Source of the DNA: Halobacillus amylolyticus
GTDB taxonomy: Bacteria; Bacillota; Bacilli; Bacillales; Halobacillaceae
Length of the DNA stretch: 64,000 nucleotides
Assembly (NCBI RefSeq): GCF_022921115.1
Contig: NZ_CP095075.1
Coordinates: 3,608,001 to 3,672,000, forward strand
Reading direction: 5' to 3'
The notes under the pieces are model-generated. The model did not search any database, was not told where the DNA came from, and worked only from the letters and a program-made list of their open reading frames with translations. The position numbers and the translations under genes were made by a program. Of the stretch, positions 31,284-62,049 are shown piece by piece. Each line of letters opens with the position of its first letter. The stretch's first letter is position 1.

Positions 31284-31332
31284 AACCCCCACCTCAGGTC
31301 ATCCAAATTCTGGATGACCTGAGGTGGGGGTT
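31284..31332. repeat. Dispersed palindrome, copy 1
   Basis: A perfect 22-bp stem lies at 31284-31305 and 31311-31332 with a 5-nt loop AATTC. The core arms are ACCTCAGGTCATCCA and TGGATGACCTGAGGT, extended by AACCCCC and GGGGGTT. It lies just after dsdA, so it probably also terminates transcription. Further copies lie at 32141, 37170 and 62003, with a diverged relative at 46717. Confidence 0.9.
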
Positions 31333-31386
31333 AAATGCTTTTATGGGAATATAATCCTAATCCTTTTTTTACCGTGATTCTACCTA

Positions 31387-31415
31387 TTGACGTGTGAAAT
31401 AATCGCTAATAAAAT
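31387..31415 (+). promoter_or_regulatory. Sigma-A promoter of the YczE-like gene
   Basis: TTGACG (31387-31392) and TAAAAT (31410-31415) are 17 bp apart, 66 bp before the start codon. Confidence 0.7.
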
Positions 31416-31480
31416 GTGGGAACGAATTTTAAGAGCAACCTCTTTTATTTCGATATTTTTTAAGAGGGGAGGGGATCGTT

Positions 31481-32122
31481 ATGCTTTATCGAGCTACGGT
31501 TTACCTTCTTGGTATGGTCATCAATTTCCTTGGGGTTACGCTCATCATTAACGCAACTCTCGGTGCCGGTTTCTGGACAGCGTTTTTTATTGGTATTTCT
31601 GATAAACTTGGTTTTACCGTAGGATTCTGGTACGGAGTGTTTCAGTTTTTCATCATTTTTATAAACGCTAAGTTAATGAAGCAGCTGCCGGAAGTGCGAG
31701 CGATTATACCTGTGTTATTGGAAAGTATTATTTTGGACTTTTGGCTTGAAATTGTTTTTGCAAATGTAGACCTATCAACAGCACCATTTGTATTGCAAGT
31801 AGCTACGTTACTCGCAGGGGTTGCTATTGTGGGGCTGGGAGTCGCTATTTATATCCTTCCGCAATTCCCAAGGGCACCCGTCGATCAACTATTCCTGGCA
31901 GTCAGTCATCGATTTAATTTAAGCTTGCAATTAGGCCAAACTGTAGTGGCAGTCATCATGACGAGTCTTGCTATCGTTATTGGTGGACCAGTCGGTATTG
32001 GAACACTAACACCGATGCTATTTCTCGGACCAATGATCCAACTCTGTTATACGTACGCCTATCCAATGTATTACAAACTTCATCCAAGCGGCGAACAAGA
32101 ACTGCAAAAAGAATTCATGTAA
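31481..32122 (+). CDS. YczE/YyaS/YitT family membrane protein
   Basis: A 213-residue protein with about 5 membrane segments. Typical YczE-family pieces are RATVYLLGMVINFLGVTLII, ATLGAGFWTAFFIGISDKLG, FTVGFWYGVFQFFIIFINA and IYILPQFPRAPVDQLFLAVS. The molecular function of the family is unknown, although B. subtilis YczE has been linked to antibiotic production. It has its own promoter and is flanked by two copies of the dispersed palindrome. ATG 31481 follows AGGGGAGGGG. Confidence 0.82.
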   Translation: MLYRATVYLLGMVINFLGVTLIINATLGAGFWTAFFIGISDKLGFTVGFWYGVFQFFIIFINAKLMKQLPEVRAIIPVLLESIILDFWLEIVFANVDLSTAPFVLQVATLLAGVAIVGLGVAIYILPQFPRAPVDQLFLAVSHRFNLSLQLGQTVVAVIMTSLAIVIGGPVGIGTLTPMLFLGPMIQLCYTYAYPMYYKLHPSGEQELQKEFM

Positions 32123-32140
32123 TATATATGTAAAATGCTA

Positions 32141-32193
32141 CCACCTCAGGTCACCCAGTATTGGTCACCCAGTATTTGGATGACCTGAGGTGG
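32141..32193. repeat. Dispersed palindrome, copy 2, with internal duplication
   Basis: Left arm CCACCTCAGGTCACCC and right arm GGATGACCTGAGGTGG form the stem. The loop is enlarged by a tandem duplication of GGTCACCCAGTATT, seen at 32149-32162 and 32163-32176. It lies between the converging YczE-like and ChbG genes and is flanked by TTTT on the right. Confidence 0.88.
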
Positions 32194-32218
32194 TTTTCTA
32201 TAGTAATGTGTACAGCCG

Positions 32219-32956
32219 TTAAATGGAACGATAATGGGTTAGCTCAAACGTATGCTGGTTTTTGTATGTCTCTTTTAAGGTTTTATCCGTCAACAAAGCT
32301 AGTTCATCCACCCGTGGATAATTAAATGATGAGCCATTCATAATACTTTTATCTAAATAAGCAGGGTGAGTCATCACTTCAATAGATTGAGCATCAGAAA
32401 ACTTTTCTGCTAATTTAATAGGCTCTTTTATTGTGTCTATTTTGTATTCAAAAGCATCGGTTTTTCTAATGGCGTCTAGATTAGTAGTTTCTGGATCAAA
32501 TACTCGGCGTACGGGCAGATCGTATTCTTCTGCAAGGTCGATAACTACTTCTGTTAGTTTTCCATAGGAATGAATATGGTGATGACTATCCAGGTGTGTA
32601 GGTTGAATACCGTTTACAATGGCCTGTTTAATCTGGGCCTTCCATTCCTCGTAAACCTCCCCTAAATCGATATCAAAGAAACCCAGATAGTATTTTAAGT
32701 TGCGAAAATGACCATTCTCATCTGTTACGGTTTGGAGATGTTTGAGAATAGGGCTTCCAGCCGTCAACGTTAAGTGTATTCCCACACCTATATTAGGGTT
32801 TTCTTTTGCTAACTGATAAGCATGGGAAGCGCCTGGCATGTTTGTCATTAGTGTCGTAGATGTTAATAATCCATGTTGAAAGGCATCAATGATACCAAAG
32901 TTTATGCCTCTTGAATAACCGAAATCATCCGCATTAATTATAAGTTTTTTTCTCAT
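32219..32956 (-). CDS. chbG: ChbG/YdjC carbohydrate deacetylase
   Basis: A 245-residue metal-dependent deacetylase. Hallmarks are INADDFGYSRGINFGIIDAF (metal Asp pair), GVGIHLTLTAG (His) and THLDSHHHIHSYG (His), typical of ChbG, which removes an N-acetyl group from chitobiose or chitobiose-6-phosphate. It is encoded directly after the GntR gene and divergent from the GH4/PTS genes. In E. coli the same set (chbBCARFG) handles N,N'-diacetylchitobiose. ATG 32956 is preceded by GTGAGGAAA. Confidence 0.9.
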   Translation of the reverse strand: MRKKLIINADDFGYSRGINFGIIDAFQHGLLTSTTLMTNMPGASHAYQLAKENPNIGVGIHLTLTAGSPILKHLQTVTDENGHFRNLKYYLGFFDIDLGEVYEEWKAQIKQAIVNGIQPTHLDSHHHIHSYGKLTEVVIDLAEEYDLPVRRVFDPETTNLDAIRKTDAFEYKIDTIKEPIKLAEKFSDAQSIEVMTHPAYLDKSIMNGSSFNYPRVDELALLTDKTLKETYKNQHTFELTHYRSI

Positions 32957-32973
32957 CGTTTTTTCCTCACATT

Positions 32974-33690
32974 CTATTCGTAATTTCTTTCAATTAAAAA
33001 TTCTACTCGATCACCACGAAAATAAGCTTCTGAGTATTCAACAATTTCTTCTGAATCTAAGAAGGTTTTCGTTGTGATTTGAAAACAAGGAGAACCTGAA
33101 GAAATGTTAAGGTTTCCGGCAACCTCCTCATCCGAAATGACAATTTTAATCTGTTCTTCCGTTCGATTTATTTGATTGCCTTTCTCTTTTATAGATTCAT
33201 ATAAGGAATGGCCCACCATTTCTGTGGTTAGCTCTGGAACAAGATCCCGTCGAACATAAGCAACCTCAAATTGAATTTCCTCATTATCAGCCAATCTTGT
33301 TCGTTTAACCTGGTGGACCTCGGTCCCCTCATCGACATTTAGAATCCTACTAATTTTGACCGCTGGGACTAACAACTGAAGGTCGTTGACTTCAATTTTT
33401 GGCTTGAGACCTTGGGATTCTAACTGCGCAGCATACTGAAGTTTACTTGAACTGAGAATCTGCTTTACCTTTCCTTTTGCAACAAAAGTACCTTTTCCCT
33501 GTTTACGATAAATGTGACCTTCCATAATGAGGTGATTGAGAGCTGTGCGAACAGTCGTCCGGCTGACATTGTATATGTTGCAAAACTCAGCCTCGGTCGG
33601 GAGGTTTTTACCTGGACGGTAATAACCATTATCGATTTTTTCTATAATATCTTTTTTTATTTGACTATGAAGTTGATCATTTTTGGACAT
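32974..33690 (-). CDS. GntR/HutC-family regulator with UTRA domain
   Basis: A 238-residue repressor-type protein. The N-terminal winged HTH reads PGKNLPTEAEFCNIYNVSRT, then TVRTALNHLIMEGHIYRKQG and GTFVAKG. The C-terminal UTRA ligand domain has VHQVKRTRLADNEEIQFEVAYVRRD in two parts and IVEYSEAYFRGDR. It resembles NagR/DasR proteins that sense glucosamine-6-P or GlcNAc-6-P. A dre-like site lies in the divergent intergenic region. This suggests control of the chitobiose genes and itself, whereas E. coli uses the AraC-type ChbR. Confidence 0.9.
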   Translation of the reverse strand: MSKNDQLHSQIKKDIIEKIDNGYYRPGKNLPTEAEFCNIYNVSRTTVRTALNHLIMEGHIYRKQGKGTFVAKGKVKQILSSSKLQYAAQLESQGLKPKIEVNDLQLLVPAVKISRILNVDEGTEVHQVKRTRLADNEEIQFEVAYVRRDLVPELTTEMVGHSLYESIKEKGNQINRTEEQIKIVISDEEVAGNLNISSGSPCFQITTKTFLDSEEIVEYSEAYFRGDRVEFLIERNYE

Positions 33691-33790
33691 AACATTACTC
33701 CTTCAAAAACAGCTTAAACTAACGATGTATGCGCTTAAAAATAGCATAACATGATTAGCTAGATTGTGGAATAAATTTGTTATTACAATC

Positions 33791-33802
33791 TGGTATAGAC
33801 AT
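33791..33802. promoter_or_regulatory. dre-like operator for the GntR regulator
   Basis: TGGTATAGACAT matches the NagR/DasR-type site TGGTATAGACCA at 10 of 12 positions. It lies about midway between the divergent gntR and GH4 genes. Confidence 0.55.
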
Positions 33803-33831
33803 ATTTGTTATGATCTGTTACTATTCATCTA

Positions 33832-33845
33832 AGAAAACGTTTTCA
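33832..33845 (+). promoter_or_regulatory. cre-like CcpA site before the GH4 gene
   Basis: AGAAAACGTTTTCA matches the cre consensus at 13 of 14 positions and is almost fully palindromic. It lies 23 bp before the start codon, a position suited to blocking transcription when glucose is present. Confidence 0.65.
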
Positions 33846-33868
33846 AGTAAATTGAGGGAGGTTCAATC

Positions 33869-35194
33869 ATGAGTCTAAAAGTTGTCATTATTGGTGGGGG
33901 ATCGAGCTACACACCCGAAATTATTGATGGAATGATTAAGCGCCATCATCAATTCCCTGTTTCAGAAATTGTCTTAGTTGACATCGATGAAGGGGAACGA
34001 AAACAAGAGATTGTAGCTAATCTAGCTAAACGAATGATCGAAGACGCTAAAGCTTCTATACAAATTCGCTACACAAAAGATAGAAGGAAAGCTTTACAGG
34101 GAGCCGATTTTGTGACAACGCAAATTCGAGTTGGTGGACTTAAAGCCCGGGCACTTGATGAAAGTATCCCGTTAAAACATGGAATGATCGGTCAGGAAAC
34201 CAATGGAGCGGGGGGGGTTTTTAAAGCATTTCGTACCATCCCTGTCCTACTTGAGATTGCTAGTGACATTCATGAAATCTGTCCAAACGCTTGGCTCGTG
34301 AATTTTACGAATCCAGCTGGAATCGTTACCGAAGCTGTTATGAAGCATAGTCAACATCAAAAAGTTATTGGAGTCTGTAATATTCCCTATAACATGAGAA
34401 GCGGTATTGGCGAGATTTTTAATGTAAGTGCTGATCGTGTCATGATCGAATTTATTGGACTTAACCATTTTGTATTCGGAAAACGAGTGTTTATTGATGG
34501 AGTTGATCAAACAGATGAGGCTATGCGACATCTTATTGATGATGATCTTAATTATTCACCGGCTAATATTGTTTCTCTTCCATGGAACAAGAATTTCTTG
34601 CAATCACTCAACATGCTTCCAAATCCTTATCATCAATATTATTTCCAGCATGAAGAAATCTTGGCAAAGGATCTTCAGGCTTATAGGGAGAACGGGACGC
34701 GTGCAGAAGTCGTTATGGAAGTCGAAAATAAACTTTTTGAAAAGTACAAAAACCCGAACCTTAAGGAGAAGCCTCAGGAGTTGGAGGAACGTGGAGGGGC
34801 CTATTATAGTGAATCTGCCTGTAGTTTAATGTCATCTATTTATAACAACTCAATGGATGTCCAAACGGTCAATACTTTAAATAAAGGAAGTATTCCAGAT
34901 TTACCATCTGATGCTGTCATTGAAGTAAATAGTGTAATTTCAGCAAGTGGTCCTATGCCGTTAGCTATTGGCCCTTTACCTGATACCATAAGCGGATCGA
35001 TTATACAATTGAAGAAATTTGAACAGCTCGTTATTGATGCTGCCGTTACGGGTGACTACAGAAAGGCTTATGCCTCTATCATCATGAATCCACTTGTCAC
35101 TTCAGATGAGAAGGCCCAAATGGTATTAGACGAACTTTTACAAGCTCATAAACCATATTTAGCCCAATTTGATAAGGAGGTAGTGAACGTATGA
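33869..35194 (+). CDS. chbF: GH4 6-phospho-beta-glucosidase / diacetylchitobiose-6-phosphate hydrolase
   Basis: A 441-residue NAD- and metal-dependent glycosidase. The start VVIIGGGSSYTPEIIDGMI is the NAD-binding region. TTQIRVGGLKARALDE, MIGQETNGAGG, NFTNPAGIVTEA, GVCNIP (metal Cys) and GLNHF are family-4 blocks. It would hydrolyse the phosphorylated disaccharide brought in by the PTS genes downstream. ChbG and a NagR-like regulator next door favour chitobiose over cellobiose. The stop overlaps the EIIC start (ATGA). Confidence 0.88.
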   Translation: MSLKVVIIGGGSSYTPEIIDGMIKRHHQFPVSEIVLVDIDEGERKQEIVANLAKRMIEDAKASIQIRYTKDRRKALQGADFVTTQIRVGGLKARALDESIPLKHGMIGQETNGAGGVFKAFRTIPVLLEIASDIHEICPNAWLVNFTNPAGIVTEAVMKHSQHQKVIGVCNIPYNMRSGIGEIFNVSADRVMIEFIGLNHFVFGKRVFIDGVDQTDEAMRHLIDDDLNYSPANIVSLPWNKNFLQSLNMLPNPYHQYYFQHEEILAKDLQAYRENGTRAEVVMEVENKLFEKYKNPNLKEKPQELEERGGAYYSESACSLMSSIYNNSMDVQTVNTLNKGSIPDLPSDAVIEVNSVISASGPMPLAIGPLPDTISGSIIQLKKFEQLVIDAAVTGDYRKAYASIIMNPLVTSDEKAQMVLDELLQAHKPYLAQFDKEVVNV

Positions 35195-36527
35195 AACAAA
35201 GTGGATTTATGAACCTCGTCGAATCGAAATTAATGCCTATTGCTGGGAAAATCGGATCGCAACGTCATCTGGTTGCGATCCGTGATGGCTTTGTTGCTAT
35301 TATGCCGCTTATTATTATTGGGTCACTAGCCATTTTAATTAACAATTTTCCGATACCTGGATTTCAAGATTTCATGATGAATGTTTTTGGCCAGGATTGG
35401 AAATCCGTTGGTGGCGCTATTTGGAACGGTTCGTTTGCTATATTGAGTTTACTGGTAGCAGCTGCCATTAGCTATAAACTTGCCGAGTCCTATGGAAGTG
35501 ATGGATTATCAGCAGCACTCGTTGGTGTCGGTGCATTTGTTGTTCTTACCCCGACCACCGAAGATTTTGGCCTTGCAATGACTTGGTTAGGTGCACAAGG
35601 GTTATTTGTGGCCGTTTTAACAGCCATAGTGTCAACGGAAATTTTCCGTCTGTTCTCCCAGGCAGAGAAACTAAAAATCAAAATGCCAGCTGGTGTACCT
35701 GATGGTGTAACAAAATCATTTAATGCTCTGTTACCAGCGGCTGTTATACTCTTTATTGCTGGTTTATTTAACGCAATTATTGTAAATCTTACAGGACAAA
35801 GCATCCATGAACTAGTATTTACATCTATACAGGAACCTTTACAAGGGTTATCCAACACACTAGGTTCAGCTATTATATTCTCATTCCTTAACCAGCTTTT
35901 ATGGTTTTTCGGGCTTCACGGGACGAATATTTTAGGACCGATTATGGAATCTATTTATCTTCCATTGATCCAAGAAAATCAGGCCTTATTTTCCGAAGGC
36001 ATGAGTGCGTTTGATGTACCTTATATCGTGACCAAGCCATTCTTTGATGCCTATGTATTTATGGGGGATCGGGAGCTACACTTGCTTTAATTATTGCGAT
36101 CTTTACCGTTGTAAAATCAAAACATTACCGAACCGTTGGGAAGCTTTCTGCAGCTCCTGGTGCGTTTAATATTAACGAGCCTATGCTGTTTGGCTTACCG
36201 ATTGTCTTAAATCCAATTATGTTCATTCCATTTATTTTGATCCCAATTATAATGACGGTTGTAGCTTACTTTGCCCTTGCACTTGGCTTCGTACCGAAAA
36301 CCGTTGCTATACTGCCTTGGACAACACCACCGATTATTAGTGGTTATCTTGTTACAGGAGGGTCCTGGAGTGGAGTCTTATTGCAACTGGTTAACTTGAC
36401 CATGGCCACAATCCTTTACATTCCATTTATCATGGCTGCCGATCGCGCAAGCTTAAAAAATACTGGAAGTGAAGACTTCTCATCAGAAAATGAACCTAGC
36501 TCAGAACAAAGGAGAAATGCACAATGA
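35191..36527 (+). pseudogene. chbC: PTS EIIC permease, cellobiose/chitobiose family, one frameshift
   Basis: Membrane permease of the lactose/cellobiose PTS family, with LVAIRDGFVAIMPLIIIGSL, LLWFFGLHGTNILGPIME, then NINEPMLFGLPIVLNPIMF and TTPPIISGYLVTGGSWSGV. The frame breaks after DAYVFMG. Adding one G to the five-G run at 36063-36067 gives MGGSGATLALIIAIF and continues into the second frame, for a total of 445 residues, a normal EIIC size. It overlaps its neighbours by ATGA on both sides. The defect matches the other G-run undercalls in the window, so the gene is probably intact in the cell. Confidence 0.87.
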
Positions 36528-36853
36528 CTAAAACGATTAACATTGAACAAGTATCGTTTGAAATAATTTTACATGCTGGCAATGCGAGATCTTCTGCGAT
36601 GGAGGCACTCCAAGTAGTTAAACAAGGAGACTATAAACAAGCAGATGATAAAATGGAGGAAGCTGAATCTGAACTTCATAAAGCCCATCAAACTCAAACG
36701 TCCCTTTTACAAAAAGAAGCAACAGGTGAGGGAGCTACACCTTCCGTCTTACTTATCCACGCACAGGATCATTTAATGACGGCGATGACGTTAAAAGATA
36801 TGGCCAAAGAAATGATTGATCTATATAAAGAAATTAGAGGAGGAAAAGAATGA
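36524..36853 (+). CDS. chbA: PTS EIIA, lactose/cellobiose family
   Basis: A 109-residue soluble phosphocarrier. It has EIILHAGNARSSAMEALQ and LLIHAQDHLMTAMT, the latter with the phosphorylated His typical of this family. It starts within the EIIC stop and ends within the EIIB start, a tightly coupled C-A-B order. It passes phosphate from HPr to the EIIB subunit. Confidence 0.92.
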   Translation: MTKTINIEQVSFEIILHAGNARSSAMEALQVVKQGDYKQADDKMEEAESELHKAHQTQTSLLQKEATGEGATPSVLLIHAQDHLMTAMTLKDMAKEMIDLYKEIRGGKE

Positions 36854-37155
36854 TGAAAATTGCTCTTGTTTGTTCAGCAGGTATGTCTACTAGTATGCTC
36901 GTTCAAAAAATGCGCCAAGTAGCTAAAGATAAAGGGTTAGAAGCAAATATTGATGCCTATGCCGAAACAGATTTAACTAAGCATATGGAGGATCTTGATG
37001 TTATCCTGATCGGGCCTCAAGTGCGTTATCTGAAAGCACAGATTACTAAGAAAGCCGAGCCATTTGGTACACCTGTAGATATTATTGATCAGATGGCATA
37101 CGGTACGATGGATGGAGAAAAAGTTTTAGGACAAGCGGAAGAATTAAAAAAATAA
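36850..37155 (+). CDS. chbB: PTS EIIB, lactose/cellobiose family
   Basis: A 101-residue soluble domain with the phosphocysteine loop IALVCSAGMSTSMLVQKM near the N-terminus, then VILIGPQVRYLKAQI. Two consecutive ATGs (36850 and 36853) follow GAGGAGGAAAAG; the second fits the family start better, the first overlaps the EIIA stop. It is last in the operon, followed by palindrome copy 3. Confidence 0.92.
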   Translation: MMKIALVCSAGMSTSMLVQKMRQVAKDKGLEANIDAYAETDLTKHMEDLDVILIGPQVRYLKAQITKKAEPFGTPVDIIDQMAYGTMDGEKVLGQAEELKK

Positions 37156-37169
37156 TAAACACCATATAC

Positions 37170-37206
37170 TACCTCAGGTCAACCAGTATTTGGATGACCT
37201 GAGGTT
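37170..37206. repeat. Dispersed palindrome, copy 3
   Basis: ACCTCAGGTCAACCA (37171-37185) and TGGATGACCTGAGGT (37191-37205) flank the loop GTATT. One mismatch lies in the left arm. It sits after the EIIB gene and before the GAF/PucR gene. Confidence 0.88.
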
Positions 37207-37307
37207 ACTTATGTTAAAAAACTAGATCGTTCTAAAAAGGTGAATGGTTTTCAAGGTTGAACATGTGTTACCTTTGTTAGTAACTATACATGTTAGGAGA
37301 TGGCGTA

Positions 37308-39089
37308 ATGGAAAGTGAGAAACGGCTGATGAGCTTAATCAATTCCGTGCGTGTTTTAAACTCAACAAGAGACCTTTCAGAAGTATTAAACCAGCTGATT
37401 AAAGAGGTGCATAACGTAATTGGTGGCGCCAATGCCAGTGTATTGTTTTTATATGATAAACAACTGGACATGCTTTATGCCAAAAGTGCCATCGGATTTG
37501 ATATGGAGTATATGAAGCATGCTTATTTACGACCAGGGGAAGGAATGAGTGGTCGGACCTTTTTATTGAAAAGAGGAAAGATCTTTTATTCAGAGGATGA
37601 TACCACACACGGGATGTCTAATGTCTCACCCGAAACCGAACACTTTTATGCTAAGTCTCTAGGCAGAATGGAATACCCGATGAGTGCGATTTGCGTGCCG
37701 TTGATATCAAATGATGACTGCATTGGAGTGCTGACGGTCGATATTTATTCAGAGGATATTCAGTTCGATGAGTCAGATTTACAGCTGCTTGAGACGTTCG
37801 CTGGGCAAGCGGCCATTGCGATTGAGAACGCCACGCTTTTTTCACAAAATGAGCGCACGAAGAAGATCCATGAAGAATTATCGAAGGTGTCCCTTTCGAA
37901 GGGAGGCTTGAGTGACATCACCAAATCGCTCGCGGGTTTAATGGGGAAACATGTAATGGTGTTCAATGAATTCAATGAGTCATTAGCGATATCAAGTCCG
38001 GAAGCAGGCCCGTTAGCAGATGAACTTAGTAAAAGCTTCGGTCCGTTACTGGAAACGAGTATCACTAAGCAAGGTTTCTCGTCTCATCGCACAAGTTTGT
38101 TTCAAAAAGACCATTTTATTTATTTCTTTCCCATTAAGACGGAAAAGCAGACGCTCGGTCTCCTGACCATCATCACGGAAGATTTATCCGAACTGGACCC
38201 TTTAGATAGGATCGCTATTGAACAAGCGATTACGATTTTCGCGATGGAAATCGACCGGCAGGAACGTCTTTTGGCAGAGGATTTTAGTCATTCGGGCTCG
38301 ATTTTAGAACAGTTGATCCATGCCCCATATGATGAGCTGTCTTCTAATCATTTAGCAAAACTCAACTTTCCCGAACACAAATCTCATCACTATGTCATCG
38401 CACAGCTCTATATCAAAAATCCGCTGCTTGCTTTTGAAAAGATTAGTGAAAAGAAGCAGCAACTGATGCGGATCATCTATCGAGAGGTTTCGAGACTTCC
38501 ATATAAGACGCTTGTGTATGATAAAAATATGGAGGTTACATTGATGTTCACGGTTTCCTCTTCAATGGATGAAGAGCAGGTGTTCCAGCATTTAGAGAAA
38601 CTATTTTCAAAAATCATTCGAACTTCCAATGAGAAACTGGCGCTCGATAACTTAGCAGGGTTTGGTCAAGTCGTGGAAAAATTGAAGCACGTTCACTTGT
38701 CATACAGGGATGCGAAACGTTGTGTACAATATTTGCAGTCAGCGTACAACGGGAAATCATTGTTGACGTATAAACAGCTCGGACCGTATCGATTGTTTTT
38801 AAAATTTGATCGAAAAGAATTACAAGAATACGTCGACGAGATTTTGGGGACTATTATCAGTTATGATCACGACCATGATACTGAACTGCTGCAAACGCTG
38901 CGAGTTTACTTGGAATCGAATCAGAATATGGAAAAGTGCTCTAAGGAACTGTTTGTCCATGTTAATACAGTCAAGTACCGTTTGAAAACGATCTACGGAA
39001 TATTGCATATTGAAAAGTTAACAGGTAGGGAAGCATTCGAACTACAGTTAGGGCTCCGTATTCTTGAGTATTTGAATGCAAAAATGTAA
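37308..39089 (+). CDS. GAF-domain PucR/CdaR-type transcriptional regulator
   Basis: A 593-residue regulator. Residues of about 10-185 form a GAF domain (GGANASVLFLYDKQLDMLYAKS in part, LRPGEGMSGRTFLLKRGKIF, PMSAICVPLISNDDCIGVLTV and LLETFAGQAAIAIENA). The middle resembles a CdaR GGDEF-like fold. The C-terminus is the PucR HTH (LRVYLESNQNMEKCSKELFV, then HVNTVKYRLKTIYGILHI). It precedes the amidohydrolase operon and probably activates it. The ATG at 37308 is chosen, after TTAGGAGATGG, although an upstream in-frame start exists at 37290. Confidence 0.87.
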   Translation: MESEKRLMSLINSVRVLNSTRDLSEVLNQLIKEVHNVIGGANASVLFLYDKQLDMLYAKSAIGFDMEYMKHAYLRPGEGMSGRTFLLKRGKIFYSEDDTTHGMSNVSPETEHFYAKSLGRMEYPMSAICVPLISNDDCIGVLTVDIYSEDIQFDESDLQLLETFAGQAAIAIENATLFSQNERTKKIHEELSKVSLSKGGLSDITKSLAGLMGKHVMVFNEFNESLAISSPEAGPLADELSKSFGPLLETSITKQGFSSHRTSLFQKDHFIYFFPIKTEKQTLGLLTIITEDLSELDPLDRIAIEQAITIFAMEIDRQERLLAEDFSHSGSILEQLIHAPYDELSSNHLAKLNFPEHKSHHYVIAQLYIKNPLLAFEKISEKKQQLMRIIYREVSRLPYKTLVYDKNMEVTLMFTVSSSMDEEQVFQHLEKLFSKIIRTSNEKLALDNLAGFGQVVEKLKHVHLSYRDAKRCVQYLQSAYNGKSLLTYKQLGPYRLFLKFDRKELQEYVDEILGTIISYDHDHDTELLQTLRVYLESNQNMEKCSKELFVHVNTVKYRLKTIYGILHIEKLTGREAFELQLGLRILEYLNAKM

Positions 39090-39095
39090 CCCATT

Positions 39096-39146
39096 ATAGA
39101 TAACCGACAAAATTCTAACTCATTTTTTGTCGGTTATCTATATATT
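39096..39146 (+). terminator. Terminator after the GAF/PucR gene
   Basis: A perfect 17-bp stem pairs ATAGATAACCGACAAAA (39096-39112) with TTTTGTCGGTTATCTAT (39125-39141). An AT-rich tail follows. Confidence 0.8.
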
Positions 39147-39215
39147 TTATCTATTTGAATTATCTTATAATTTTGACTACTAACTTTTAAAACTAAAGGA
39201 AAAGGATGTGTAGGA

Positions 39216-40382
39216 ATGGCGCCCATATTTATTGTATTGATCCTAGTTTCTATTATTGCTTTAGGGGAAGTTCTCTCACTGTCATCGAGAGCAAAGATTC
39301 CTACATTATTAGTAGTTGTAGCTGTTACTTTTGTGTTGCTGCAAACCGGTATATTGCCGGAATCTTATATTGAAGCATCGACCTTCGTGGCTGCCGGCGG
39401 TGTGCTCGTTCCCGTATTAATCGTACACCTGGGAACGATGATCCCGTTATCTGTCATCAAAAAGCAGTACAAGGCAGTCCTTATTACATTGATAGGTCTC
39501 CTAGTATCTGTCGGAGCAATGCTCATCATCATTTCCCTTATTTTCGATTATAAAACAGCCGTAGCTGGAGCAGGCCCGCTAACTGGCGGAATTATCGCCT
39601 ACATTGTTACGCAAGAAGGACTAACAGAAGCCGGTTTCACTTCGCTTGCCGCGATTCCGGTTGTTGTGTTTGCGCTGCAAAACCTTGTTGGCATGCCACT
39701 TACTTCTACGCTGTTAAGTAAGTATGCTGTGTCGATAAGGGATGATTTTTCTAGTGAAAATTATCCTGATCAACAAGATGATGAAATGGAAAGGGCAAGT
39801 AAGAACAAAAAATTGCTGCTTCCAGACCGCTTTATGCAAAGCAACTTCTTTCTGCTGTTCCTATTGTTTATTGGCGGGGCGCTAGCTACTTGGCTAGGTG
39901 AAATAACCGGCATCAATTATAGCCTCTGGTCGCTCGCTATCGGGATCATAGGGTTTGCTTTAGGGTTTTATCCTGACAAAACACTCGATCGCTCTAATAG
40001 TTCAGGACTTGCGATGGTGGCATTGATCATCGTCGTTGTTAATTCACTCGTTGGCATCACTTGGGACCAAGTTGTATCTTCGCTTGTAGCAGTATTATTC
40101 GTGATTGTAGTAGGGACGACAGGTCTAGTTATCGGTGGAATGATAGGAGCGAAAATTTTCAAATGGAAACCGACTAAGGCAGTACCGATCGTACTGACGG
40201 CACTGTACGGCTTCCCTGGAGATTATTTGATCGTAGAAGAAGTAAGCAGAAGTATTGGACGTAATGAAGCCGAACAAAAAAGGATTATGGATGAATTACT
40301 TGCGCCAATGTTGATCGGAGGTTTCACTTCAGTCACTGTTGGATCAATCGTTATCGCAAGTATTCTAATAGGTACACTTTAA
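39216..40382 (+). CDS. Uncharacterised polytopic membrane protein, putative transporter
   Basis: A 388-residue protein with about 10-11 hydrophobic segments and one polar cytoplasmic loop (about residues 170-200, charged, ending ERASKNKKLLLPDRF). Segments such as GAGPLTGGIIAYIVTQEGLT and LTALYGFPGDYLIVEEVSRS contain Gly/Pro-rich breaks typical of ion-coupled carriers. I do not recognise the family with certainty. It is the first gene of an operon with an amidohydrolase and an M20 amidase, so it probably imports their substrate. ATG 39216 follows AAAGGATGTG. Confidence 0.7.
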   Translation: MAPIFIVLILVSIIALGEVLSLSSRAKIPTLLVVVAVTFVLLQTGILPESYIEASTFVAAGGVLVPVLIVHLGTMIPLSVIKKQYKAVLITLIGLLVSVGAMLIIISLIFDYKTAVAGAGPLTGGIIAYIVTQEGLTEAGFTSLAAIPVVVFALQNLVGMPLTSTLLSKYAVSIRDDFSSENYPDQQDDEMERASKNKKLLLPDRFMQSNFFLLFLLFIGGALATWLGEITGINYSLWSLAIGIIGFALGFYPDKTLDRSNSSGLAMVALIIVVVNSLVGITWDQVVSSLVAVLFVIVVGTTGLVIGGMIGAKIFKWKPTKAVPIVLTALYGFPGDYLIVEEVSRSIGRNEAEQKRIMDELLAPMLIGGFTSVTVGSIVIASILIGTL

Positions 40383-40399
40383 AAAAGGAGAGATTGCTA

Positions 40400-41659
40400 A
40401 TGGCCTATACACTAATTAAAAATGGAACGTTGCTCGATGGCCAAGGAAATGAGCCGGTCCCTGGTGCAGCTGTACTAATTAAGGACAATTTTATTGAGCT
40501 AGTAGGAAAGTCAGCAGAAATATCAATACCAGAGGATGCCACTGTGATCGATGCGACAGGCAAATATATTTTGCCGGGCTTAATCGATACGCACGTGCAT
40601 ATGGCGATGGAGTTGAGAAATATTCAAGACGCGATTCTGACACCTTTTTCCTATCGTTTTTATGAAAGTGTCCATTATTTGAAACGAACATTGGATGTCG
40701 GCATCACCTCTGTTCGTGATGCCGGGTTTTCAGATGCCGGTATGAAAAAAGCTGTAGAAGATGGCCTTGTGGATGGACCGCGCATGCAAGTAAGCATCAA
40801 TCCACTAACGATTACCGGGGGACACGGAGATAATTGGAATCGTTCTGGAGTAGACACAACGATGCAGACGTATCCGGGAATGCCGAACGCGATTTGTGAT
40901 GGCAAAGAAGCTGTTCGCAAAACAGTGCGTGAAATGCTGCGTGCTGGAGCCGATGTGATTAAAGTCCATGCGACAGGAGGAGTAACGAGTCCAACTGACC
41001 ACCCAGAGTTTACCCAGTTCTCACAGGAAGAATTAGAAGTGATGGTGGAAGAAGCTCATTTTCGTAAAGGTATAAAGGTGATGGCCCATGCCCAGGGAGC
41101 AGAAGGTATCAAGAATGCTATCCGAGCAGGCATCTACTCTATTGAACATGGCATCTATATCGATGATGAAGCAATTGAACTGATGCTCGAGAATGGTACT
41201 TTCCTTGTCCCTACCTTGCTCGCCCCTATTTCCGTGCTAGAGTCGAGTGAGAAAGATGACAAGATGGCACCATATGCTGTCGAGAAATCCAAGGAGGTCG
41301 TTGAGGCCCATAGGGCAAGTGTTGCTAAGGCTTATAAAGCTGGTGTAAAGATTGCGATGGGAACAGATGCAGGGGTAATGGCACACGGGACCAACCTCCG
41401 CGAGCTTGGGCTGATGTGTGATATCGGCATGTCACCGATGGAAGCTCTTGTAGCCACTACTAAAACCGCGGCCGAGTGCCTTGGCTGGGAAGATCAAGTC
41501 GGAACAATCGAAGCAGGAAAACTTGCCGATGTCATTTTGACCGATGTGGATCCTCTTAAGGATATCCGTGCATTAGAAAACAGTGATCATATCACAATGG
41601 TTATGAAAAATGGCTCCGTCTATAAAAATCTAGCGGAAAGGAAGGGTGCACATGTCTAA
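40400..41659 (+). CDS. Metal-dependent amidohydrolase (imidazolonepropionase/prolidase-like)
   Basis: A 419-residue amidohydrolase-superfamily enzyme. Metal ligands are visible in order: GLIDTHVHMA (HxH), DVIKVHATGGV (bridging Lys), VMAHAQG (His), SIEHGI (His) and MGTDAGVM (Asp). These match the imidazolonepropionase-like / Xaa-Pro dipeptidase subgroup that cleaves N-acylated or cyclic amides. The ATG at 40400 is used (AAGGAG upstream) rather than a TTG at 40394. It lies between a transporter and an N-carbamoyl-type amidase. The actual substrate is unknown. Confidence 0.85.
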   Translation: MAYTLIKNGTLLDGQGNEPVPGAAVLIKDNFIELVGKSAEISIPEDATVIDATGKYILPGLIDTHVHMAMELRNIQDAILTPFSYRFYESVHYLKRTLDVGITSVRDAGFSDAGMKKAVEDGLVDGPRMQVSINPLTITGGHGDNWNRSGVDTTMQTYPGMPNAICDGKEAVRKTVREMLRAGADVIKVHATGGVTSPTDHPEFTQFSQEELEVMVEEAHFRKGIKVMAHAQGAEGIKNAIRAGIYSIEHGIYIDDEAIELMLENGTFLVPTLLAPISVLESSEKDDKMAPYAVEKSKEVVEAHRASVAKAYKAGVKIAMGTDAGVMAHGTNLRELGLMCDIGMSPMEALVATTKTAAECLGWEDQVGTIEAGKLADVILTDVDPLKDIRALENSDHITMVMKNGSVYKNLAERKGAHV

Positions 41660-42950
41660 TAGTTGGGATTTATATACGAGATTAATAGAAGACTACAGTC
41701 CATCCCTTTCCTCTGGTGGCATCGATGGGGATAGGATTGCAAGAAGGCTGCATGAGATTTCCAAGATCGGTCTTACGGAAGATGGAGGAAGCCGGAGAGT
41801 TGGCTTCTCCCAGGAGGAAAAGCAGGCGAAAACATTGGTTAAAGGATGGATGAAAGAATTAGGTCTTTCTATCACAGAGGATGGTGCTGGGAATGTATTC
41901 GGCCGCCTAGAAGGGAAAAATCCTTCCCTGCCGGCGATTGTCAGTGGCTCTCATTTGGATAGCGTACCAAATGGCGGTCATTTTGACGGGCCCCTTGGTG
42001 TCCTTTCTTCGCTAGAACTAGTGGAAGCCTGGAAGGAAAACGGTTATCAGCCGACAAGGCCGTATGAAGTGGCAATTTTTTCCGATGAAGAGGGGTCTCG
42101 TTTCAACAGTGGTCTGACAGGAAGCAGGGCGATGACCGGTGATGTCGATATGGAACTTCAGCAGGGACTCGTCGACCAAGATGGGAACTCATTTGAACGT
42201 GTGATGAGTGAAGTTGGGTTATCTGCGGAGAGTTTCGCCGGTGCTGCTCGAAATCTGAACGAGGTGGCATCATTCGTCGAGGTCCATATTGAACAAGGGA
42301 AAAAGTTAGACGAGCAAAACCTTCCCGTAGGTATCGTATCTGGCATTGCAGGCCCAAGCTGGCTCGAGGTCGAATTTTATGGGAACGCAGGCCATGCCGG
42401 AAACACACCAATGACCGATCGCCAAGACGCATTAGTGGCTGCTGGGGGATTCATTAGCCGCATTCATAGTCTGCCGGGCCAGGTGAGTGATTCTGCCGTC
42501 GCTACTGTCGGGAAACTTCACGTCTACCCGAATGGAATCAATGTCATCCCGGGAAAAGTCGCCTTGCATGTCGATATTCGCGACATCCATGAAGACACAC
42601 GAACAGAGCTGACTCAATTAATTATTGAGGAAGCAGAGAAGACTTCCCAAAATTACGGAGTTCGGTGCAGTCATAAACAAACGTTGCAAGTCACTCCAGT
42701 ACCGATACAGTCTGATATCAAACAATACCTGCGCCAGGCAATGGAACAGCATCAGATTCCCGCGACAGAACTACCAAGTGGTGCCGGGCATGATGCATTA
42801 ATCATCGGAAGCCACCTTCCAGTAGCCATGCTATTTGTGAAAAGTAAAGACGGCGTAAGTCATAACCCTGAAGAGTGGTCATCTTTAAATGACTGCGTTC
42901 AAGGTGTCCATGTATTGAAGGCATATGTGGAATCAATTGATCAGGCATAG
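41652..42950 (+). CDS. M20-family Zn hydrolase (N-carbamoyl-L-amino acid / allantoate amidohydrolase type)
   Basis: A 432-residue dinuclear zinc amidase. Blocks are SGSHLDSVPNGGHFDGPLGV (metal His/Asp), FSDEEGSRFNSGLTGSRAM (catalytic and metal Glu), EVHIEQGKKLDE, GNAGHAGNTPM in the dimerisation domain and LPSGAGHDAL (His). This set defines the hydantoinase/carbamoylase family, including N-carbamoyl amino acid hydrolase, allantoate and ureidoglycolate enzymes. It overlaps the preceding gene by 8 bp. With the amidohydrolase upstream it could perform two successive hydrolyses, but the substrate is not evident. Confidence 0.87.
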   Translation: MSNSWDLYTRLIEDYSPSLSSGGIDGDRIARRLHEISKIGLTEDGGSRRVGFSQEEKQAKTLVKGWMKELGLSITEDGAGNVFGRLEGKNPSLPAIVSGSHLDSVPNGGHFDGPLGVLSSLELVEAWKENGYQPTRPYEVAIFSDEEGSRFNSGLTGSRAMTGDVDMELQQGLVDQDGNSFERVMSEVGLSAESFAGAARNLNEVASFVEVHIEQGKKLDEQNLPVGIVSGIAGPSWLEVEFYGNAGHAGNTPMTDRQDALVAAGGFISRIHSLPGQVSDSAVATVGKLHVYPNGINVIPGKVALHVDIRDIHEDTRTELTQLIIEEAEKTSQNYGVRCSHKQTLQVTPVPIQSDIKQYLRQAMEQHQIPATELPSGAGHDALIIGSHLPVAMLFVKSKDGVSHNPEEWSSLNDCVQGVHVLKAYVESIDQA

Positions 42951-43031
42951 CATGCAATAGTTAGTCAGCCAAGTTATAAAGAATCTGCTTAAAAAATAAC
43001 AAATAAAGACAACAGATGAGGAGGCGGGCAT

Positions 43032-43850
43032 ATGTCTGAAGTGCAAAAAAATCTATGGAAGGATTGGCGTCTGCATGCACTTATATTTGTTATTGTAGTG
43101 ATAACAGAGTTGATCGGCACACACGAATTTTCTGTTGGGCCAGGGGTTATTCTGTTATTGCCTATGCTTTATGCGATCATTATAGGTCTTGCTCTGTATT
43201 TCACCCCAATTGTTAAAGAAAAACAATCTAAACATGCCGAACCTCTAATTGTTCTAGGGGTCACGCTGTTAATTGCAAAAATTGGTGTGATCATAGGTCC
43301 GTCATTACCGCAAATTATTGCCGCCGGACCTGCCTTATTGCTGCAAGAGTTTGGAAACCTGGGGACCATTTTCATAGCCCTGCCGATCGCTGTCTTTCTT
43401 GGCTTAAAAAGAGAAAGTATTGGCATGACGCACTCAGTGGCTCGTGAACCCAATGTCGGGCTGATCATGGACAAATACGGATTTAATTCCCCGGAAGGGC
43501 GGGGAGTTATGGCCATTTACATCTTTGGAACAGTGTTTGGTGCCGTATTTATGGGCCTCATCTCTGGATTTTTAGCGACCATTACACCAATCCACCCGTT
43601 ATCCTTTGCGATGGCATCAGGGATCGGCAGCGGCAGTATGATGGCAGCAGCCAGTGGCTCACTTGTAGCCGCCTTTCCTAGTATGGAAACGAATATCCTT
43701 GCCTTCGCCGGAGCAAGTAACCTCCTGTCATTATCGACCGGTTTGTACATGAGTATATTCATTGGATTACCGTTGACGGAAAAATTATATGATGTGTTAA
43801 CAAAGCGAAGAGATAACAGGTCAGATGCTAAGACGGGAAGGGGTGCGTAA
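43032..43850 (+). CDS. DUF3100 family membrane protein
   Basis: A 272-residue protein with about 7-8 membrane segments. The order WRLHALIFVIVVITELIGTH, ALYFTPIV, LGLKRESIGMTHSVAREPN and ASGIGSGSMMAAASGSLVAA is typical of DUF3100 proteins. Its function is unknown. The next gene, 2 bp downstream, encodes another small membrane protein. The two probably form a two-subunit transporter. This would be the second putative transporter in the operon, perhaps an exporter of a product. ATG 43032 follows GAGGAGGCGGG. Confidence 0.8.
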   Translation: MSEVQKNLWKDWRLHALIFVIVVITELIGTHEFSVGPGVILLLPMLYAIIIGLALYFTPIVKEKQSKHAEPLIVLGVTLLIAKIGVIIGPSLPQIIAAGPALLLQEFGNLGTIFIALPIAVFLGLKRESIGMTHSVAREPNVGLIMDKYGFNSPEGRGVMAIYIFGTVFGAVFMGLISGFLATITPIHPLSFAMASGIGSGSMMAAASGSLVAAFPSMETNILAFAGASNLLSLSTGLYMSIFIGLPLTEKLYDVLTKRRDNRSDAKTGRGA

Positions 43851-43852
43851 CC

Positions 43853-44305
43853 ATGCTGAAAAGTGTACAGGAATGGACATTGTTATTGCTGATCTTTGGA
43901 GTTGTTTCAATCCTTGGCAACTGGATTGGATATAACATCTTCCCAGTCGAGGCCATACCAGGTATGGTTATTCTCATTTTGATCGCTTTAGCAGGGCTGA
44001 TTTTGCAAAAACTCCTCCCAATAAGGATTCCCAGCATAGCTTATGTTGCCATTATAGGTGTGCTAGTATCCATGCCATGGATGCCTGGCTCTGAACAAAT
44101 CGTAGCTATGACAAACCATATAAACCTCTTAGCCCTTACCACCCCCATCCTTGCCTATGCAGGTATTGCGATTGGTCGTTCATGGGCCGATTTCGTCAAG
44201 CTTGGATGGAGAACGATTGTAGTAGCATCCTTTGTGATGCTTGGCACTTTCCTTGGTTCAGCGATTATAGCTGAGTTTGTTTTGAGAATGCAAGGTATCA
44301 TTTAG
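43853..44305 (+). CDS. Small membrane protein partnered with DUF3100 protein
   Basis: A 150-residue protein with about 4-5 membrane segments (LLLLIFGVVSILGNWIGYNI, AIPGMVILILIALAGLIL, ILAYAGIAIGRSWADFVKLG and the C-terminal VVASFVMLGTFLGSAIIAEF). It starts 2 bp after the DUF3100 stop. It is not recognised beyond this. It probably functions with DUF3100 as a bipartite carrier and is last in the operon. Confidence 0.78.
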   Translation: MLKSVQEWTLLLLIFGVVSILGNWIGYNIFPVEAIPGMVILILIALAGLILQKLLPIRIPSIAYVAIIGVLVSMPWMPGSEQIVAMTNHINLLALTTPILAYAGIAIGRSWADFVKLGWRTIVVASFVMLGTFLGSAIIAEFVLRMQGII

Positions 44306-44323
44306 CGGAATGTTTCATTTATT

Positions 44324-44369
44324 AAAGTCGATTGTTTAAGCTTCTGGTGCTTAAACAATCGACTTTTTT
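44324..44369 (+). terminator. Terminator of the amidohydrolase operon
   Basis: AAAGTCGATTGTTTAAGC (44324-44341) pairs perfectly over 18 bp with GCTTAAACAATCGACTTT (44349-44366), followed by more Ts. Confidence 0.92.
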
Positions 44370-44479
44370 ATATGCAAGTTGTGATGCATTATTATAAAAT
44401 GATAACAAACGAACTTTCCTAGTCAGACAGAAGTTTTATCGCATTTAAAAATTGCTATATGAAAAGGAGAGGGTAAAAG

Positions 44480-45475
44480 ATGAAGAAGATCATTAATAAT
44501 CCTGAAGAGGTCGTTCAAGACATGCTAAAAGGGTTGATTGCTGCCCACCCGAATTCACTTAAGCAAATCCCTAATACTACAGTGATCGTTCGAAAAGGTG
44601 CACCTGTCCCTAACAAGGTTGGAATTGTCAGCGGTGGTGGAAGCGGTCACGAACCTGCTCATGCCGGCTATTTAGGTGAAGGGATGCTTGATGCTGCTGT
44701 ATGTGGTGAAATGTTCACTTCACCTACTCCCGATCAAGTGTTTGAAGCAATCAAAGCGGTAGACAGCGGTTCAGGTGTGTTTCTTGTCATTAAAAACTAC
44801 ACGGGGGATGTTATGAACTTCGAGATGGCTGCAGAGCTTGCTGAGGCAGAGGGAATTAGTGTTGAGAAGGTTGTGGTTAATGACGATGTAGCTGTAGAAG
44901 ACAGCTCCTTCACAACAGGACGGCGCGGTATCGCCGGGACGGTTTTTGTCCATAAGATTGCTGGGGCGAAGGCTGCTGCAGGAGGATCTTTACAAGAAGT
45001 GAAGGACGTGGCTGAAAAAGTGGTGGCTAACGTCCGTTCCATGGGCATGGCCTTAACTCCCTGTACGGTACCGGCTGCTGGAAAGCCTAGTTTTACTCTT
45101 GATGAGGATGAAATGGAAATTGGCATAGGCATTCATGGGGAACCAGGAATCGAAAGGAAGAAATTGACTTCAGCTGACGAAGTCGCAGAAGAATTGACGC
45201 AAAAGGTACTTGACGACATCAAATTTAACAGTGGCGATGAAGTAGCTGTCATGATCAATGGAATGGGGTCGACACCTGAGATGGAATTGTACATTTTGAA
45301 TGGGAAAGTCCAAGAGATCCTTCATGAGCGAGGTCTTACTATTCATAAAACCTTTGTCGGTGAATATATGACTTCACTTGAAATGGCTGGTTGTTCCGTT
45401 ACGTTGCTCAAACTCGATAAAGAAACGAAACAATTACTAGATTCAGATTCAAACGCGCCGGCCTTCCACAGCTAA
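44480..45475 (+). CDS. dhaK: Dihydroxyacetone kinase subunit DhaK
   Basis: A 331-residue subunit binding dihydroxyacetone covalently. GIVSGGGSGHEPAHAGYLG is the substrate loop, and GIGIHGEPGIERKK contains the His that forms the hemiaminal. Other family blocks are FLVIKNYTGDVMNFEMA and GRRGIAGTVFVHKIAGA. It is the first of a dhaK-dhaL-dhaM operon that uses PTS phosphate, not ATP, to make dihydroxyacetone phosphate. ATG 44480 follows AAAGGAGAGGG. Confidence 0.95.
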   Translation: MKKIINNPEEVVQDMLKGLIAAHPNSLKQIPNTTVIVRKGAPVPNKVGIVSGGGSGHEPAHAGYLGEGMLDAAVCGEMFTSPTPDQVFEAIKAVDSGSGVFLVIKNYTGDVMNFEMAAELAEAEGISVEKVVVNDDVAVEDSSFTTGRRGIAGTVFVHKIAGAKAAAGGSLQEVKDVAEKVVANVRSMGMALTPCTVPAAGKPSFTLDEDEMEIGIGIHGEPGIERKKLTSADEVAEELTQKVLDDIKFNSGDEVAVMINGMGSTPEMELYILNGKVQEILHERGLTIHKTFVGEYMTSLEMAGCSVTLLKLDKETKQLLDSDSNAPAFHS

Positions 45476-45494
45476 TAGGAAAGGGGTATCTAAA

Positions 45495-46716: not shown

Positions 46717-46745
46717 ACAGGCCATCCACACTTTGGATGGCCTGT
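46717..46745. repeat. Diverged relative of the dispersed palindrome (copy 5)
   Basis: ACAGGCCATCC and GGATGGCCTGT form an 11-bp perfect stem around ACACTTT. The CAGG-CATCCA and TGGATG-CCTG core resembles the other four copies, but the outer arms have changed. It may serve as the dhaM operon terminator. Confidence 0.6.
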
Positions 46746-46950
46746 GGTGTATGAACCATTTACTTTGAGGACCGCTATAAACCTAGCATCCTACTATAAT
46801 AAACGGCCTCCCCTTAGGAGACCTCATAATTTCTTGAACCGTTGAATAGTTATAGAAGTGAAAAAATTGAAGCCCCAATTCTAGTCAATGGCTAGACGAG
46901 AGTCAGTTACAAGATTAAATATGAGCTTTGAAGAGAACGGAGGTTTACTG

Positions 46951-60948: not shown

Positions 60949-61167
60949 ATGGTGCTAGTCAAGGATAAGTTACTGTCGAATCCCTTCAAACAGCTTGTGA
61001 CGCGATGACTATAGGATAATAAACCATTGCTGTAACTTTTGAGTACACGTTTTGTGTATTAAACAGGCAGGATTTAGAGCTATAATTAGCTTCGCTGTTA
61101 TTTATATGTCGATAAACGGATAATTATTTTCAAAATTTACTTTTCCAAAAACACGAAGTTACGCTAT

Positions 61168-61204
61168 ACAAAAATACCCTGGCTTCGTAAAGACCAGGGT
61201 ATTT
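61168..61204 (-). terminator. Terminator of the DUF2642 gene pair
   Basis: AAATACCCTGG (61172-61182) pairs with CCAGGGTATTT (61193-61203). Read on the minus strand it ends in TTTTTGTATAG. Confidence 0.8.
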
Positions 61205-61238
61205 ACCAAAACTATTCTGTTTAAATACATCTTTTGTT

Positions 61239-61451
61239 CTATGCTGCTACAAGAAAACGAACAAAGTTGATAGCATCTACCGAGATAAATTGTTTGTTAT
61301 TTGATCCATAACCACTATCAACCTCAACAACTAGCACTAAATCTGCTGTAACGGTTGAGAGAAGCCCTTCGATCAAATTATTATTTGTAGCTACTTCAAC
61401 TCTTGAACCAATACGTGTGGCTAGTTCGGCAGCAAAAGTTTCTGCAAACAT
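61239..61451 (-). CDS. Small DUF2642-like protein, possible spore coat component
   Basis: A 70-residue acidic protein: FAAELATRIGSRVEVATNNN, then IEGLLSTVTADLVLVVEVDS and FISVDAINFVRFL. The pattern of a short beta-barrel with a central ADLVLVVE strand resembles the C-terminal half of the next protein and DUF2642 proteins of Bacillus spores. It starts at ATG 61451, behind AAAGGAGGG, 13 bp after the upstream gene. The assignment to spore coat is inferred. Confidence 0.7.
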   Translation of the reverse strand: MFAETFAAELATRIGSRVEVATNNNLIEGLLSTVTADLVLVVEVDSGYGSNNKQFISVDAINFVRFLVAA

Positions 61452-61464
61452 CTAAAACCCTCCT

Positions 61465-61854
61465 TTACATTTCACTGACAAGTTCAATTTTTTCAATACG
61501 GACTAGGACTTGAGCTCCAGAACTTTCAACAATCACGACATAATCGCTTTCTACGACCAACAGTGTTCCAGTTACTACACCAAAAGGGGTAGTGACTTCT
61601 ACTTGTTCGTTGACTAAAGTCAACAATACTTCCCTAAGTGTTGTAGGGGTTGTAGGGGTTGTAGGGGGTGTTGGAGTCCCTGGTACAGGGTCCACTGTAT
61701 CATCTCCTCCTAAATCGACATCGAGATCGACATCGACATCTAACCCTGGTAAATCAAGTGAATTATTTGAGCTTAGCCCACTACCAGAAATTAAACTCTG
61801 GGACAATTGGTTAGCCAGCCTTAAAAGTTCTGTCTGGCGATTTGTTAGAGTCAA
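61465..61854 (-). CDS. DUF2642-like protein with acidic repeat and Thr-Pro linker, possible spore coat protein
   Basis: A 129-residue protein in three parts. Residues 1-30 form a helix (NRQTELLRLANQLSQSLISG). Residues 35-70 are a low-complexity acidic and Thr/Pro stretch (LDVDVDLDVDLGGDDTVDP, then PTPPTTPTTPTTL). Residues 70-129 are a DUF2642 beta domain (LREVLLTLVNEQVEVTTPFG, VVTGTLLVVESDYVVIVES). Start is a TTG (61852-61854) behind AAAGGATG. It is followed by the 70-residue relative. The layout and sigma-K-like promoter suggest a spore coat or exosporium protein near the glycan genes. Confidence 0.72.
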   Translation of the reverse strand: MTLTNRQTELLRLANQLSQSLISGSGLSSNNSLDLPGLDVDVDLDVDLGGDDTVDPVPGTPTPPTTPTTPTTLREVLLTLVNEQVEVTTPFGVVTGTLLVVESDYVVIVESSGAQVLVRIEKIELVSEM

Positions 61855-61887
61855 CTGAATTCATCCTTTCTATAATAGTTTTCTATT

Positions 61888-61914
61888 TACTATATGTTTG
61901 TTTCTTTCGTCCGT
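61888..61914 (-). promoter_or_regulatory. Sigma-K-like promoter of the coat-like genes
   Basis: On the minus strand CATATAGTA (61888-61896) matches the CATANNNTA -10. An AC at 61913-61914 lies 16 bp upstream, as in the -35 of sigma-K promoters. It lies 34 bp before the TTG start. Confidence 0.5.
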
Positions 61915-62002
61915 AAGGGCATTCACATACGTTAATAGATAATTCCACCAATAACCTAGAATTATAGAACACAAAAATATAGCAACCATAATCAAGGTAA
62001 AT

Positions 62003-62049
62003 AATGCCACCTCAGGTCATCCAATATTTGGATGACCTGAGGTGGCATT
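62003..62049. repeat. Dispersed palindrome, copy 4
   Basis: A perfect 22-bp stem spans 62003-62024 and 62028-62049 with a 3-nt loop. The arms are the common core extended by AATGCC and GGCATT. It ends 7 bp from the aldehyde dehydrogenase stop codon and probably terminates that minus-strand gene. Confidence 0.92.

Follow-up and report, generated by a model that had tools for sequence, protein, structure and literature searches.

The present analysis concerns a 64,000-nucleotide stretch of Halobacillus amylolyticus DNA (contig NZ_CP095075.1, positions 3,608,001 to 3,672,000 of the forward strand; the whole stretch is termed the window) and a family of short palindromes dispersed at its gene ends. 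These palindromes are very likely REPINs, that is, hairpin-forming doublets of repetitive extragenic palindromic (REP) sequences, of a REP-associated tyrosine transposase (RAYT) gene located about 93 kb past the end of the window. An earlier note on the window had weighed a plain terminator set against an element resembling a REP or a miniature inverted-repeat transposable element (MITE), and the latter was supported by 57 copies in the genome, their excess at gene ends and a RAYT gene flanked by copies.

The four palindromes lie where the earlier note had placed them, each with the exact right arm TGGATGACCTGAGGT and with left arms that vary at one position (T, C, A and T in copies 1 to 4), and the window holds nine arm matches with up to 2 mismatches, where 100 shuffles gave 0.05 on average. 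The entire genome of the organism (G000; 4.30 Mb, 2 contigs) holds 57 palindromes of the form CCACCTCAGGTCATCCA-N5-TGGATGACCTGAGGTGG, and reversed-pattern controls returned 0. Single arms with up to 2 mismatches numbered 74 and 75 on the two strands, against 1 and 3 for the control. Among 53 paired copies read together with their flanks, the loop measured 5 nt in 50, 6 nt in two and 19 nt in one. The conserved arm is taken to be 17 nt long because each of the next two outward bases is G in 103 of the 106 arm ends. A copy is made of two inverted 17-nt words and a 5-nt AT-rich spacer, often with copy-specific complementary flanks. Most exact arms stand in pairs; some of the single arms represent copies that have lost one half, and pairs in inside-out arrangement are also present.

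The compensatory flanks, from which the note had argued for selection on hairpin structure, were upheld as to pairing only. Flanks differ from copy to copy yet pair within a copy, and this pairing exceeded all 200 column shuffles at positions 3–6 beyond the 15-mer, with position 3 paired in 42 of the 53 copies against a shuffle mean of 17.4. The complementary flanks need not imply selection on RNA structure, because strand-switching at the hairpin, a correction of one arm by the other at the DNA level, could be the source of complementary arms and flanks alike.

A DNA uptake signal (of the DUS or USS kind, often found in inverted pairs) was also considered, as the 15-mer occurs single as well as paired and stands in exact form once inside ligA and once inside purE (L025:3033-3047; L026:3077-3091). 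DUS and USS occur at a density of roughly one per kb. The approximately 150 arms in 4.3 Mb are far below such density, most exact arms are paired and the RAYT association would be left unexplained, so that this explanation was rejected on the number and pairing of the arms and is considered extremely improbable. A REP within the DNA ligase of another species is reported in a published survey (PMC3733652). Spread by viruses was likewise rejected, as IMG/VR contained 0 exact matches to the repeat.

The linked transposase is the single PF01797 (Y1_Tnp) match in G000 (C1:3764521-3765084, minus strand), an open reading frame of 187 aa with a palindrome copy on either side, and the REP-associated tyrosine transposase that the earlier note had named as a possible companion of the repeat is thereby found. 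Copies within 30 kb of the RAYT gene amount to 13 of 57 in G000, 12 of 55 in G007 and 6 of 27 in G036, where less than 1 was expected in each. The gene is flanked by copies on both sides in nine of ten copy-rich genomes belonging to two genera (G000, G006, G007, G008, G020, G030, G034, G036 and G063; the layout in G020 was read from the coordinates of exact copies and of the Y1_Tnp match), and 0 of 26 other RAYT-like rows have this two-sided palindrome layout. In all nine, the RAYT gene runs at its end into the downstream copy, which contains the stop codon; the last codons in G000, ACC TCA GGT CAT CCA GAA ATT GGA TGA, encode the tail TSGHPEIG followed by the stop. A survey of RAYT loci in public genomes, in which 80 loci were kept from 201 relatives, found the stop codon inside a perfect hairpin (arms of at least 11) at nine loci, all from Halobacillus. 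The tenth Halobacillus locus (L143) and the other 70 loci fail the perfect-hairpin test, L143 keeping the layout with one base changed.

With respect to the protein, the HUH and tyrosine residues H60, H62 and Y119 are invariant in 17 of 17 sequences, and the sole NCBIfam family matched was REP_Tyr_transpos (NF047646; E 4e-18). A structure model of the RAYT of a relative, H. hunanensis (mean predicted local distance difference test score 78.6), suggests a related fold, its best match being 4er8, a RAYT bound to a REP hairpin (E 1.4e-7; TM 0.61 and 0.67; root-mean-square deviation 6.7). Alternatively, an ordinary DDE-type insertion sequence could have given rise to the palindromes as its MITE, the RAYT being next to them by chance; a short repeated inverted-repeat structure, mostly intergenic copies and a patchy distribution would suit this reading. 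It does not account for a RAYT flanked by copies in nine genomes of two genera and sharing its stop codon with one of them, nor for sister RAYTs with words of their own; no target duplication was noticed by eye at aligned sites, which included no clean empty site, and no parent element was searched. This alternative is accordingly judged very improbable.

The RAYT genes of copy-poor relatives are flanked by other repeat words. Eight genomes of genus g4 have 3–11 occurrences of the word GACCTGGTCAYCCA on each strand, usually with the inverse word at a distance of 5 nt. The counts of TGTACCNGGTACA are 18 in G001, 31 in G002, 38 in G009, 7 in G012 and 6 in G028; copy-rich genomes hold 0–1 of the former word and 0–2 of the latter. 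A third type, GGTGCCAGGCACC, was also observed. On a RAYT tree of 35 rows, the repeat-word labels require 8 changes, whereas shuffled labels require 21.9 on average. The repeat word follows the RAYT clade, each RAYT lineage having its own repeat family. The CCAGGTC rows form one clade (support 100/99), which is nested in the CTGAGG rows with weak support only, and the CTGAGG rows may have a single origin. Rows dropped from the tree were IS200-like or truncated (L090-L094, L103, L109), fragments (L133, L134) or, for L128, had no open reading frame that passed the filter. The other words were also considered as ordinary species-specific terminators, which was rejected, as they came to notice solely beside their RAYTs. 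When two loci of copy-poor genomes were read by eye over 20 kb each, no recurrent long palindrome stood out.

Further short repeats common to both flanks, such as GGGGACTGTCC, GGGTCAGACCC and GTGCCAGGCAC, were seen at RAYT-like genes of other Bacillaceae (L147, L154, L175, L185, L187, L199, L209 and other loci), which suggests that more such families can be found.

Exact copies of the G000 repeat are found in 8 of 61 genomes and 2 of 30 genera. Of the 44 genomes of the family, searched with up to 3 mismatches, 10 have 27–64 copies, 5 have 1–2 and 29 have none, and the distribution is nearly all-or-none. G000 falls in the same GTDB-type genus as G008 (Halobacillus hunanensis); other named relatives are G034 (H. 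alkaliphilus) and G063 (H. halophilus AcN7-4).

The position at gene ends described by the earlier note was confirmed in the window, where the nearest stop codon lies 12–36 nt from all four copies, and throughout the genome, where copies are in excess between convergent genes and beside stop codons. As per automatic gene calls, and with expectations drawn from the intergenic length of the same fetched stretches, the 53 copies comprise 22 in convergent-gene intervals (11.2 expected), 22 in same-strand intervals (27.9 expected) and 5 in divergent intervals (9.9 expected). Thus 49 of the 53 lie between called genes and 4 in called reading frames, one of which is the RAYT.

Such placement is also what would be anticipated of intrinsic terminators that act in both directions and have a stem word in common because a protein or RNA binds it, with no link to transposition. 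The copies typically lie 8–40 nt past stop codons, those between same-strand genes are closer to the 3' end of the upstream gene in 20 of 22 cases, the outward flank consensus is T-rich at positions 6–10 on both sides, and the arms at fixed sites are far more conserved than the flanks. This explanation nonetheless leaves the flanking of the RAYT, the embedded stop codon and the clade-tracking words unexplained, and it is at odds with the near all-or-none distribution within a genus. At gltD, moreover, an ordinary terminator stands ahead of the element in G000 and G007, and the element is regarded there as an addition because G006 and G008 have a terminator but no element. Terminators alone are therefore held to be improbable, although a terminator role may coexist with REPIN nature. 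A crude scan for other terminators, with regard to their loss or replacement by copies, was non-discriminating (hits at 18 of the 66 adjacent gene ends and at 15 of the 83 control ends), and a scan over 30000-48000 of the window listed copy 1 (minus strand) and left copies 2 and 3 unlisted.

At one site of G006 (L050:2449-4261), a BCCT betaine-type transporter gene has a copy on each side, whereas G008, G000 and G007 have a single copy there, which suggests recombination between copies, with possible gene gain or loss. On a larger scale, 56 of the 57 copies of G000 were located, none of them more than 1.34 Mb from the dnaA match of the 4.15-Mb chromosome, and in G036 26 of the 27 copies lie within 1.38 Mb of dnaA; dosage, core-gene content or history could explain this bias. 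The open frame that holds the Bac_DnaA_C match of G000 (C1:2713256-2713462) measures 182 aa, compared with 452–493 aa in five relatives, and a frame break or an assembly error is possible.

G000 was compared with 220 kb of G007 (approximately 86–90% identity), where 17 of 20 paired G000 copies occupy a shared site; the other 3 could not be mapped by long alignment, and two of these found a G007 partner by their flanks. Three paired G007 copies have no partner, one of them lying opposite a G000 stretch outside the compared data. In the 19 flank-matched pairs, 17 of 646 arm bases and 443 of 3088 flank bases were changed (Fisher p 4e-21), the arms changing about five times more slowly than the flanks, and two of the arm changes were compensatory. 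From G020 and G034 (34 and 44 copies), 31 pairs were kept under a flank divergence limit of 35%, with 7 of 1054 arm and 662 of 5652 flank bases changed; this set was chosen by exact arm matches, and its arm figure is biased low. Flank divergence at orthologous sites was 12–14%. Since strand-switching alone cannot hold the arm at the family consensus, this conservation points to selection or to exchange between copies.

The orthologous 5-nt loop is often the exact reverse complement of its counterpart, with the outer flanks keeping their orientation. Such exact inversion was seen in 11 of 31 pairs of G020 and G034 and in 3 of 19 pairs of G000 and G007, for example at L247/L254 and L248/L275 (G020 against G034) and at L046:8560, L046:14901 and L047:1294 against G007. 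Taken in the better orientation, the loops of 18 G000–G007 pairs mismatch at 18 of 90 bases (33.8 for random pairs, p 0.0002); read directly, they mismatch at 42 of 90 (49.5 for random pairs, p 0.08). Among 30 informative loops of G020 and G034, 16 fit better directly and 14 inverted. The loops are inherited, often reversed. Inversion was tried as a signature of the RAYT and rejected, and it is probably a general hairpin process, because other long hairpins show reversal too (3 of 5 informative control pairs, from three distinct hairpins of which two showed inversion); a smaller control of 4 other hairpins showed no inversion. Small inversions at palindromes are reported in plastid DNA, to which the present loop inversion is likened.

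Several observations weigh against the assignment of the palindromes as REPINs of this RAYT. The 5' foot of the hairpin reads CCAC and GTGG occurs at the 3' foot only, so the canonical GT[AG]G tetranucleotide is absent from the 5' foot of the copies. The RAYT scores 65.7 bits against the equivalog cut-off of 80 of NF047646 and has no match in PDB by sequence, and copy-rich G066 (approximately 1000 contigs) gave no Y1_Tnp match. Neither a transposition event nor a clean empty site was found among the 20 paired G000 copies compared with G007, and the arm conservation could stem from a host function unconnected with the RAYT.

The REPIN reading is retained with these points in view. By analogy with other RAYTs, the HUH/tyrosine enzyme would bind the single-stranded hairpin and would have spread copies at a low rate, with insertions next to stop codons being those that presumably survived. 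Many copies may now act as bidirectional terminator-like hairpins or as hairpins at mRNA 3' ends, and the arm word would be held constant by host selection or by exchange between copies. The copies, being fixed between species, may in many cases now serve the host, perhaps as terminators. It is conceivable, albeit doubtful, that they are no longer selfish at all but gene-end hairpins held by host selection or exchange, with the RAYT as the keeper of the hairpin population rather than a spreading transposase.

The copies of the window, given the name of their very likely nature, and the neighbouring genes are collected in Table 1. The diverged hairpin reported at 46717 was verified, and its orthologue in the relative G007 is likewise diverged. 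Opposite window positions 29757-29811, G007 carries a segment of 2.3 kb that is absent from the window; a REPIN stands close to the right edge of this segment and a single arm lies within it. A search of a plasmid collection with 24 kb of the window gave no near match.

Table 1 Probable REPIN copies and adjoining genes in the window (positions within the window).
Feature	Position	Strand	Remarks
REPIN copy 1	31284..31332		22-bp stem including copy-specific extension; dsdA stop 36 nt before the 15-mer
REPIN copy 2	32141..32193		between convergent yczE-like and ydjC-like genes; 19-nt loop, not 5, from partial duplication
REPIN copy 3	37170..37206		one left-arm change; PTS (phosphotransferase system) IIB gene ends 15 nt before
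REPIN copy 4	62003..62049		3' end of minus-strand aldehyde dehydrogenase gene 12 nt away
Diverged relative	46717..46748		hairpin ACAGGCCATCCA
D-serine ammonia-lyase	29899..31254	+	adjoins copy 1
YczE-like membrane protein	31481..32122	+	adjoins copies 1 and 2; match under curated cut-off
YdjC-like deacetylase	32219..32956	-	adjoins copy 2
PTS lactose/cellobiose IIB	36850..37155	+	adjoins copy 3
Aldehyde dehydrogenase family	62056..63375	-	adjoins copy 4

REPIN/RAYT systems are already known, and the present case very probably belongs to them in the broad sense of dispersed doublets, a flanked Y1 HUH gene and lineage-specific words. The GI–GIII systems of Pseudomonas fluorescens SBW25 are alike in their inverted doublets of an invariant word with a less conserved spacer, their compensatory changes, their singlets resembling decayed doublets and their linked tyrosine transposase, and unlike in that their REPs carry GT[AG]G and their doublets measure 71 or 110 bp (PMC3116915). 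In the Halobacillus family, the arms measure 17 nt and the spacer 5 nt, the copies number 57, the 5' foot has no GTAG and one copy lies over the RAYT stop codon. The E. coli REPtron with TnpA-REP (4er8) shares the HUH and tyrosine enzyme, the closest fold and the flanking of the gene by its own repeat; the REPs of E. coli require GTAG and a stem with a bulge, in contrast to the perfect, untagged Halobacillus stems (PMC8266576). The sequence similarity between the two enzymes is too low for a PDB match.

Flanking repeats without the GT[AG]G consensus are also described for TnpA-Y1 subclasses 2.6, class 3 and TIRYTs, which are mostly of Bacteroidetes (2.6) or of Planctomycetes, Acidobacteria and Proteobacteria (class 3); the Halobacillus protein is likened to them by its repeats (PMC6006769). 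The survey passages available assign GTAG-tagged REPs to Proteobacteria, Cyanobacteria, Chloroflexi and the PVC group and CGTC-tagged REPs to Proteobacteria, Chlorobi, Bacteroidetes, Spirochaetes and Thermotogae, and Firmicutes are named in neither group in those passages (PMC3733652). Two Geobacillus papers, in the parts consulted, do no more than count annotated RayT genes.

The 15-mer was absent from the literature searched, and searches on RAYT or REP in Bacillus, Firmicutes, Bacillaceae, Bacillota and Halobacillus returned no description of the system, most subscription papers being outside their scope. A 2017 survey of domesticated RAYTs may already cover RAYTs of Bacillota. The searches made did not turn up in print the present repeat family or any REPIN-RAYT system of Bacillota, nor did they show the combination of an embedded stop codon with a 5' foot that lacks GTAG, or a succession of words among sister species.

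Overall, we present a RAYT-linked repeat family that very probably represents REPINs in Bacillota and in halophilic bacteria. Sister species with different words and closely kin transposases provide a natural test of co-change between repeat and transposase, and the strong conservation of arms at fixed sites is relevant to the question of why REPINs persist for such long times in bacteria.

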